Made by a program: the position numbers and the translations under genes
Shown: positions 1,647 through 29,563 of the stretch, piece after piece
Layout of the letters: every line of letters starts with the position of its first letter
Position numbering within the stretch: position 1 is the first letter of the stretch
The notes under the pieces: model-generated
Databases searched by the model: none
Seen by the model: the letters and a program-made list of their open reading frames with translations, nothing else
Told to the model about the DNA's origin: nothing
IMG/VR virus record: IMGVR_UViG_3300043411_002457
Location: 1-32,201 of that record
DNA: 32,201 nt
Source of the DNA: a virus
Reading direction: 5' to 3' (one strand)

Positions 1647-3005
1647 CTATGATCCAAATATATCCACAACCACAGATAGTCTTTTAGTAATTTGTGGCAT
1701 TTCTAAAGGTTCAATAATAGAATTTATCGGAGACAAAATTGCTTTCTCGAATTGAATGTCATAATCGATTTCGGGGGAAAATTCCATCGGATAAAATCCT
1801 CTTATATAAGCAAAAATATCATTAATTTTTGTATTCTTACAATAGTAGTATTTGATTTTAGTGCCTGATTTTATAAATTCATATTTTTGTTGAGCTGCCT
1901 TATTTCTAAGTAAAAGATAATTATAATATGCAGCTCCTTTAACAGCAAAGTGTGTTCCAGACACAAAACTAAGAAACTCTTTATCTTCTAAAACCTTTGT
2001 CTCGTAATTAGAGACGGAAGATTGCATCGATATCTCATCAATATCGGCTAGCTCAAATTCTCTTCTTAGATTCTTAACTAATTTAAGAAGATCTTTTATG
2101 TTAAAATCATCAGGATGAGCAAAAAGATACTTAACGATCTCTATGATCTTTTCTCTAGCGAATAGTGGTGTTGATGATCTAACCAATTCTACACCTTTGG
2201 GGAAAAGATAATTTAATCTCTCATAGGGAATTCCATCCTCATATACAATATGTTGAATGTATTTTTTCTTAGCAATGTTTATTATAGATTCTGATATTCT
2301 TTCTAGCTCAAAGTCCTCTTCATTGGGGACTCCAAATGATGATGCATAATCTTCTAAACATTTTTTAAAATAGTTAGCATATCTGAAATGATCAATCCCA
2401 TGAATATAATCTAATTCATTTTCCCAATTCCAAATGATAGTTTTATTAATTAGTAGGTCTTGGATTTCCTTTTTATTTAAATCTCTATCTTTAACAAAAA
2501 AACCATCTATTATAATCATTTCTATATTTTCAGACCCTAAAATAGACTCCAGTGTGGATTCACCATCATTCGACCTAACCTTAGATACGGATCCCACAAA
2601 ATTTGGATTATCTGTTTTTGTATTTGATCTGTTTTCCAGTATTATGAATTTTTTATCAATTTTAGAAAGAAACTCATTACACAAATGTATATTTTTCCAC
2701 TCTGAGTGGACAATAGCTGGTTGAAATGATACAAATAAAGAGTCAGTATCTGCATAAATTGATGCGGGTTCAATTCGATTATCATTGTCATCTCTCTTTG
2801 GATTTATTGGTGTTACATTTTTTATTCCTAGTTTTGTGTGTAATTCAAAATCTAGATGCCATTTATTATACCAATAATCCTCATTAACCCTATCCATTGT
2901 TTGGGTAAGATCTCGACCCTGTGCCGTTATCGTACCGGCGACATGTTTATTATAGAGAATAAAATAAGGTGTTGCGAAGGCTCCTTGATCTTTGCCCTCA
3001 CTCAC
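1647..3005 (-). CDS. 43: Family B DNA polymerase (gp43), C-terminal palm and thumb part
   Basis: This part carries the second half of the polymerase palm and the thumb. It opens with GAFATPYFILYN, the residues that follow the Tyr-Gly of motif B, then has motif C, YADTDS (D86 and D88 as the metal-binding aspartates), and ends in VVVDIFGS. The ending resembles the C-terminal clamp-binding tail of T4 gp43 (LDFLFG). The N-terminal exonuclease domain, motif A and most of the fingers are absent here. The frame has a GTG at 3005 inside a perfect hairpin, reading V-S-E-G-K-D-Q before GAFA. The sequence LQTALKLILNGSY, the first half of motif B, lies just upstream in another frame (3017-3148). So the enzyme is either split into subunits or joined by a recoding event across 38 nt. 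The clamp gene lies immediately upstream, as expected of a replication cluster. Identity is firm; the mode of expression is open. Confidence 0.85.
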   Translation of the reverse strand: MSEGKDQGAFATPYFILYNKHVAGTITAQGRDLTQTMDRVNEDYWYNKWHLDFELHTKLGIKNVTPINPKRDDNDNRIEPASIYADTDSLFVSFQPAIVHSEWKNIHLCNEFLSKIDKKFIILENRSNTKTDNPNFVGSVSKVRSNDGESTLESILGSENIEMIIIDGFFVKDRDLNKKEIQDLLINKTIIWNWENELDYIHGIDHFRYANYFKKCLEDYASSFGVPNEEDFELERISESIINIAKKKYIQHIVYEDGIPYERLNYLFPKGVELVRSSTPLFAREKIIEIVKYLFAHPDDFNIKDLLKLVKNLRREFELADIDEISMQSSVSNYETKVLEDKEFLSFVSGTHFAVKGAAYYNYLLLRNKAAQQKYEFIKSGTKIKYYYCKNTKINDIFAYIRGFYPMEFSPEIDYDIQFEKAILSPINSIIEPLEMPQITKRLSVVVDIFGS

Positions 3006-3016
3006 TGAGTGAGGGC
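2994..3016 (-). promoter_or_regulatory. Perfect stem-loop in polymerase motif B gap
   Basis: On the coding strand GCCCTCACTC-AGT-GAGTGAGGGC forms a 10-bp, G-C-rich stem with a 3-nt loop. The stem begins at the base after the TAG that ends the upstream polymerase fragment, and the GTG that opens the downstream frame lies within it. No T run follows, so it is not an ordinary terminator. The geometry (stop codon, then an immediate stem-loop, then resumed homology) recalls the T4 gene 60 translational bypass. Confidence 0.7.
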
Positions 3017-3148
3017 CTAAACATAAGAACCATTGAGGATGAGCTTCAATGCTGTCTGAAGCCCATTGTAATAATCTACTTCTCTTTTCAGACTAGTAGA
3101 TTGAATCCTCAATGATTCAATTTTTTTTAACTTTTCTTCTTCTTTCAT
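3017..3148 (-). CDS. DNA polymerase fingers / motif B fragment (43 codons)
   Basis: From an ATG at 3148 the frame encodes 43 residues, ending LQTALKLILNGSYV and TAG. LKLILNGSY is the first part of family B motif B (Kx3NSxYG); the missing Gly and what follows (GAFATPYF) resume 38 nt later in the frame of the next entry. The preceding residues are charged and helical, consistent with the base of the fingers. Upstream of this ATG the frame is not continued and the clamp gene begins, so the N-terminal polymerase half must lie outside the window. A three-codon reading frame (ATG at 3156) ends in a TGA overlapping this ATG. It could be the true start of a recoded C-terminal subunit or a relic; I favour a functional element because motif B is intact up to the break. 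Confidence 0.65.
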   Translation of the reverse strand: MKEEEKLKKIESLRIQSTSLKREVDYYNGLQTALKLILNGSYV

Positions 3149-29503: not shown

Positions 29504-29517
29504 AAAATAAAATATCA

Positions 29518-29555
29518 AAAAAGAAAGGGCCTCAAAAATGAGGCCCTTTCTTTTT
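29518..29555. terminator. Strong intrinsic terminator, 16-bp stem
   Basis: AAAAAGAAAGGGCCTC and GAGGCCCTTTCTTTTT are exact reverse complements with a 6-nt loop. The stem carries a GC core and runs straight into a T run. It follows the lipoprotein gene, and the next promoter box overlaps its 3' side. Confidence 0.95.
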
Positions 29556-29563
29556 ATATATAA
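29554..29563 (+). promoter_or_regulatory. TATATA-type phage promoter box
   Basis: TTATATATAA begins in the terminator T tract and ends 4 nt before the ATG of the WYL-like gene. Confidence 0.45.

Follow-up and report, generated by a model that had tools for sequence, protein, structure and literature searches.

A stop- and hairpin-containing insert in motif B of a split phage DNA polymerase belongs to a family resembling the bypass element of T4 gene 60

We describe a 38-nt non-coding insert that interrupts the family-B DNA polymerase gene of a huge phage in motif B, its most conserved site. It lies in a 32,201-nt stretch of viral DNA (IMG/VR record IMGVR_UViG_3300043411_002457), here called the window. 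Comparison with related loci indicates that the insert belongs to a family of similar elements, for which programmed translational bypass of an endonuclease-associated insert, as in T4 gene 60, is probably the best explanation. Bypass in phages has so far been documented essentially only in T4 gene 60. A 2010 review of T4 regarded bypassing as apparently unique to this gene, and according to a 2016 review its counterparts have long been presumed to exist. A search of the open-licence literature revealed no earlier report of bypass in a phage polymerase. A further consequence is that automatic gene calling cuts this polymerase short, or divides it, in many huge phages.

Results

The interrupted gene

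The interrupted gene (Table 1) encodes the C-terminal piece of a family-B polymerase that is split into two genes. The gene for the N-terminal half was located in seven relatives, at a distance of more than 40 kb, and there it is an open frame of 501-531 aa with an exonuclease domain. Each of 25 records searched has a single copy of the C-terminal half and none has a second; the interrupted gene is therefore presumably functional.

Table 1. Features of the interrupted polymerase gene in the window
Feature	Position	Strand	Basis
First 42 codons of the C-terminal polymerase gene, ATG (3148) to the take-off TAT; NGSY is the first half of motif B	3023-3148	-	sequence; start codon and sequence conserved in relatives
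Putative take-off codon UAU (Tyr42)	3023-3025	-	spacing of about 6 nt to the hairpin, constant across the insert family
5' stem-loop within coding sequence, 10 bp (AUGGGCUUCA/UGAAGCUCAU)	3039-3066	-	folding; synonymous recoding, z -3.6
38-nt non-coding insert	2985-3022	-	direct reading; relatives
In-frame stop TAG, one codon past take-off	3017-3019	-	direct reading
Take-off hairpin, perfect 10-bp stem with 3-nt loop	2994-3016	-	sequence; folding
Putative landing triplet CAA, unmatched to UAU	2985-2987	-	sequence
Coding sequence after the insert, GAFATPYF through the stop: remainder of motif B, motif C (YADTDS), thumb	1647-2984	-	Pfam DNA_pol_B 1.6e-14; PHROG 262 DNA polymerase 2e-39

The insert in the window

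The minus strand of the window reads AAT GGT TCT TAT, followed by the insert (GTT TAG GCCCTCACTC AGT GAGTGAGGGC AAAGATCAA) and then by GGA GCC TTC GCA ACA CCT. The loop of the hairpin is AGU, and AAAGATCAA follows on its 3' side. GAFATPYF, which begins at 2984, is in a different frame from NGSY, which ends with the codon starting at 3025. A sequence-only reading of this DNA had reported the TAG, the frame change, the perfect stem with its 3-nt loop and an AAGGAG at the resumption point, and direct inspection finds all of them. The AAGGAG is made up of two As together with the Gly-Ala codons, and the other insertion positions described below do not share it.

The insert alone folds with a predicted -19.8 kcal/mol (z -4.9). 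A 121-nt region around it reaches -48.1 kcal/mol (z -5.8), and none of 200 shuffles was as stable; outer helices in this predicted fold join both ends of the insert. The 5' stem-loop in the coding sequence had not been part of the earlier reading.

Several familiar elements do not account for the insert. An intrinsic terminator is ruled out, since no U run follows the hairpin on its 3' side. An intein would be an open in-frame insert with a splicing domain; here 38 nt break the frame and hold a stop. A search of Rfam gave no match to a known intron RNA of group I or group II, and the insert is 38 nt long. The 42-residue peptide encoded upstream in the window does not contain the nascent-peptide signal KKYK, and a different lysine-rich signal in this peptide is possible.

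Relatives with and without an insert

The sequence-only reading had proposed a search of related phages for the same gap or for an uninterrupted motif B, and viral metagenomes contain both. Frame-tolerant alignment against an intact polymerase protein detected more than 40 related loci with a comparable insert at motif B and about 30 in which motif B is intact. The confirmed relatives are metagenomic viral contigs of up to ~600 kb and genomes of uncultured phages (634 and 642 kb). Distant matches among named phages include phages of Prevotella, Tenacibaculum, Flavobacterium and Chryseobacterium; no relatives were found in prokaryote genomes.

At least 32 of the inserts are distinct, and they occupy six positions within the same 11 codons (codons 32, 33, 36, 39, 40 and 42; the window insert is at 42). 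Our tabulated set comprises 31 of them. The 32nd, L192, has the take-off codon GUU, the stop UGA and the landing triplet GUA, and came to light solely through the associated endonuclease on its contig. Since independent metagenomes yield so many distinct inserts that are built alike, the insert in the window is neither a chance feature nor an assembly error, and the earlier judgment that it is no simple sequencing error holds. Among the 31 tabulated inserts the gap from take-off to landing is 33-45 nt long, and its length covers all three residues modulo 3 evenly, which rules out simple read-through of the stop.

Anatomy of the inserts

All elements follow the same order: a take-off codon, about 6 nt that usually hold a stop, a hairpin, about 6 A-rich nt and a landing triplet. 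The take-off codon nearly always ends in U or C. The base of the hairpin is typically CCCCC/GGGGG and its upper part is variable. Of 31 elements, 27 have a stop within two codons of take-off in frame 0; the corresponding numbers for the other two frames are 0 and 1. This count, like that of the matched landing codons below, overstates independence, because the elements share ancestry; what can be counted as independent is the six positions and roughly a dozen changes on the tree. TAA, TAG and TGA are all used. The stop is usually one codon past take-off, as is the TAG of the window, and directly adjacent in L023, L031, L045 and L192; four of the 31 elements have no stop within two codons.

At positions 32-40, i.e. 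five of the six positions, the landing triplet is synonymous with the take-off codon and in phase in all 23 distinct elements, which again are related by descent. The pairs are GCT with GCA or GCT, CTT or CTG with CTA, GTT with GTT, GGT with GGT, and TCT with TCA; L192 adds GTT with GTA. Eight elements, including that of the window, are at position 42, and none of them has a synonymous landing triplet. There UAY is followed by UAA, AAC, GAC, AGC or CAA as landing triplet, with the middle A mostly kept. The sequence-only reading had noted that no triplet before GGA matches UAU; this is right for the window, and no UAU or UAC occurs there in any of the eight position-42 elements. We also considered the codon beside the stop as the take-off site. 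By eye it has no matching landing triplet, and it would insert an extra residue into motif B.

Because the stops are confined to one frame and the landing codons match in phase, we connect the element with translation and not with RNA splicing or a target duplication in DNA. These features also bear on removal of the insert at the RNA level. Here phage or host enzymes, directed by the stem-loops, would cut the mRNA twice and ligate it in a small splicing reaction of a kind not yet described, and ribosomes would never meet the stop. The stem-loops do draw the ends of the insert together, and the unmatched codons at position 42 pose no problem for such a reaction. However, it leaves unexplained both the restriction of stops to one frame and the synonymous codons at the two ends in five positions. 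Moreover, the inserts match no Rfam intron, have no conserved end sequences and are much shorter than known self-splicing introns. We regard RNA removal as improbable.

The same anatomy speaks against two separate polypeptides, with termination at the stop, a restart downstream and a motif B built from two chains. The sequence-only reading had named reinitiation at GTG 3005 as an alternative, and this codon does open the resumed frame in the window; in addition, the polymerase is already split elsewhere. As a general mechanism, however, reinitiation is not supported by the relatives: in many of them the stretch from the insert to the landing site offers no start codon in the resumed frame, and in nine the landing codon is immediately preceded by a stop. 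The cut in motif B would also fall inside an invariant helix, and neither the matched codons nor the 5' stem-loop would be explained. Two polypeptides therefore seem highly improbable to us.

A stem-loop in the upstream coding sequence

At most insertion positions a covarying stem-loop of the coding sequence precedes take-off. Elements at positions 32, 33 and 36 have a long helix in the coding sequence immediately 5' of take-off. Compared with recodings that preserve the protein, this helix is exceptionally stable (z -2.8 to -8); the same test on 16 intact genes gave an average z near 0. Covariation was seen at positions 32 and 33: across 20 insert-bearing loci, 87.7% of the cells pair and six of 13 pairs have changed on both sides. 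At most one of 500 shuffles matched this result, and the signal was lost when the partners were slid. In 18 intact loci only 44.9% pair, with no covariation signal. The upstream helix is thus under selection as RNA, and this selection goes with the insert.

Most elements at position 42 have no significant 5' helix; the window does have one (Table 1). The signal for a further outer helix (P1), in which the landing site would pair with upstream codons, is no more than suggestive: at position 33 this helix is 83% paired and shows one A-U/U-A swap (permutation p 0.13).

Gain, loss and a neighbouring endonuclease

A tree was built from the portion of the polymerase downstream of the insert. On this tree the presence of the insert changes about 16 times, with 13 changes forced by well-supported branches, and its position changes 24 times. 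L012 and L013 encode identical downstream proteins from DNA that is 95-100% identical, and their upstream DNA is unrelated; the first has its insert at position 42 and the second at 32, so that the recombination break falls at the insert. The same pattern is seen between L014, with an insert, and L017, without one.

A family of endonuclease ORFs (255-385 aa, shorter at contig ends) lies 9-90 nt upstream of the polymerase piece in divergent orientation at 23 loci. All of these bear an insert, and no intact locus has such an ORF in this slot. Pfam assigned two of three tested members to DUF7487, and PHROG assigned three of three to homing endonucleases; YPTIDHK...NLCITKR is conserved. The association between endonuclease and insert is upheld by independent pairs on the tree (5-8 concordant, 0 discordant, median p 0.016). 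Two endonuclease clades broadly track the insert positions, one with 32/33/36 and the other with 39/40/42, with one exception each. Spread driven by the endonuclease is, in our judgment, the most likely origin of the inserts.

No DUF7487 endonuclease adjoins the insert in the window. In L023 and L025 the insert is retained beside the decayed remnant of a DUF7487-type endonuclease, upstream of the polymerase piece. Both situations would follow if inserts persist after the endonuclease has been lost.

Other genes were also seen near this site. An HNH endonuclease ORF, truncated by the contig end, lies at 2-406 of the window. The slot just 5' of the polymerase piece is filled by a DNA methylase in L040-L042 and by a GIY-YIG/NUMOD3 endonuclease in L043, which has an insert, and in L032, L033 and L035, which have none. 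A phage gene for translation initiation factor IF-3 lies close upstream of the polymerase piece in loci with and without an insert (L005, L006, L012, L014, L017, L018, L022, L027, L049, L111); that of L005 has the Pfam domains IF3_N and IF3_C.

The fast shifts of presence and position would suit a small, selfish mobile palindrome that inactivates the gene and is tolerated because another polymerase takes over. Yet the 25 records hold no second copy of this polymerase half, both flanks of the insert are open and conserved across many lineages, and the covarying stem-loop sits in the coding sequence of the host gene. Elsewhere in the records, GC hairpins lie between genes or in coding sequence that stays in frame. 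We consider an inactivating insertion extremely improbable. A dispersed mobile element was rejected on the same distribution of hairpins, and relatives of the endonuclease located away from polB are not accompanied by such an element.

Discussion

In the mechanism that we favor, translational bypass, the peptidyl-tRNA would leave the take-off codon and re-pair 33-45 nt downstream on a synonymous triplet, or on a poorly matched one at the position used in the window. The upstream coding stem-loop may refold behind the ribosome and drive it forward, and the outcome would be a single intact polymerase. The divergent homing endonuclease beside the gene probably keeps and moves the inserts: an allele with an insert would resist cutting, and repair would co-convert the insert and its 5' coding flank. 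The event on the ribosome, the roles of the stem-loops and the protection from the endonuclease are what we infer from the arrangement of these parts.

The set of parts equals that of T4 gene 60 with mobA, and for this reason we judge bypass to be the most likely mechanism. The T4 system has a split replication gene, a stop, a take-off hairpin, a 5' coding stem-loop, an adjoining HNH-type homing endonuclease and uninterrupted relatives; its insert lies 46 codons into the downstream piece and the gap is 50 nt (PMC3014915, PMC5009743, PMC11194080). The polymerase inserts likewise form a frame-breaking, non-coding gap with uninterrupted homologues, a few dozen codons into the downstream piece of a split replication gene. 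They share the take-off hairpin, the nearby stop and the 5' coding stem-loop, the last significant in the window but not in most position-42 elements. A homing endonuclease adjoins insert loci and no intact ones, although none adjoins in the window, and unlike mobA the DUF7487-type gene is divergent to the polymerase gene. The analogy with gene 60 drawn in the sequence-only reading is thus strongly supported by the relatives, through the stop, the hairpin, the 5' stem-loop, the synonymous codons at five of six positions, the endonuclease and the split gene.

There are also differences. The host is motif B of a DNA polymerase rather than a topoisomerase, and the gap is shorter than in T4. Six insertion positions, several take-off tRNAs and dozens of variants contrast with the single T4 element. 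The stop is adjacent to take-off in T4 but usually one codon away here. The window, in addition, lacks KKYK and a matched landing codon.

The bypass reading is weakest at position 42, i.e. for the element of the window itself, because the landing triplet there never matches UAY. The earlier proposal of bypass consequently gains from the anatomy of the family, but not from the window's own unmatched landing codon and the missing neighbour endonuclease. Because a matched landing codon was tested for and not found, we do not file this element as gene 60-type in the strict sense; in most other testable respects it appears gene 60-like. At least for the position-42 inserts without matched codons, landing might be set by RNA structure instead of by a codon match, for instance by the outer helix, if it forms, that pairs the landing site with upstream codons, or these inserts might undergo an undescribed mini-splicing; we think this rather unlikely.

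The byps of Magnusiomyces capitatus mitochondria number 81 in 12 genes of one genome, and their codon match is not always perfect (PMC5009743). They resemble the polymerase inserts as short, frame-breaking insertions in conserved genes with sometimes imperfectly matched take-off and landing codons. In contrast to them, the inserts described here occur in phages, are confined to one gene, essentially once per genome, and are accompanied by a 5' stem-loop in coding sequence; many copies across many genes of one genome were not seen. The family-B polymerases of the jumbo phages MIJ3 and Tenacibaculum phage PTm1 present another parallel, in that the same gene is split and targeted by homing elements (PMC6892783; phage annotations). 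Their inteins are spliced from the protein, whereas the motif-B insert is too small for that, disrupts the frame and contains stops.

Some further features were observed. In L040-L042, L044, L045, L051, L052 and L142 the same gene has insertions of ~0.5-2 kb at motif C (YADTDS, codon ~113-115). These had no match in Rfam, including those of 0.5 kb, and are probably introns or inteins. The polymerase piece of L055-L058 is reduced, relative to that of other loci, by ~76 aa in the segment from motif C to the thumb, as judged from match length. Elsewhere in the window, a terminator-like inverted repeat (23 bp, 4-nt loop; 29512-29561) lies at the start of an ORF at 29538.
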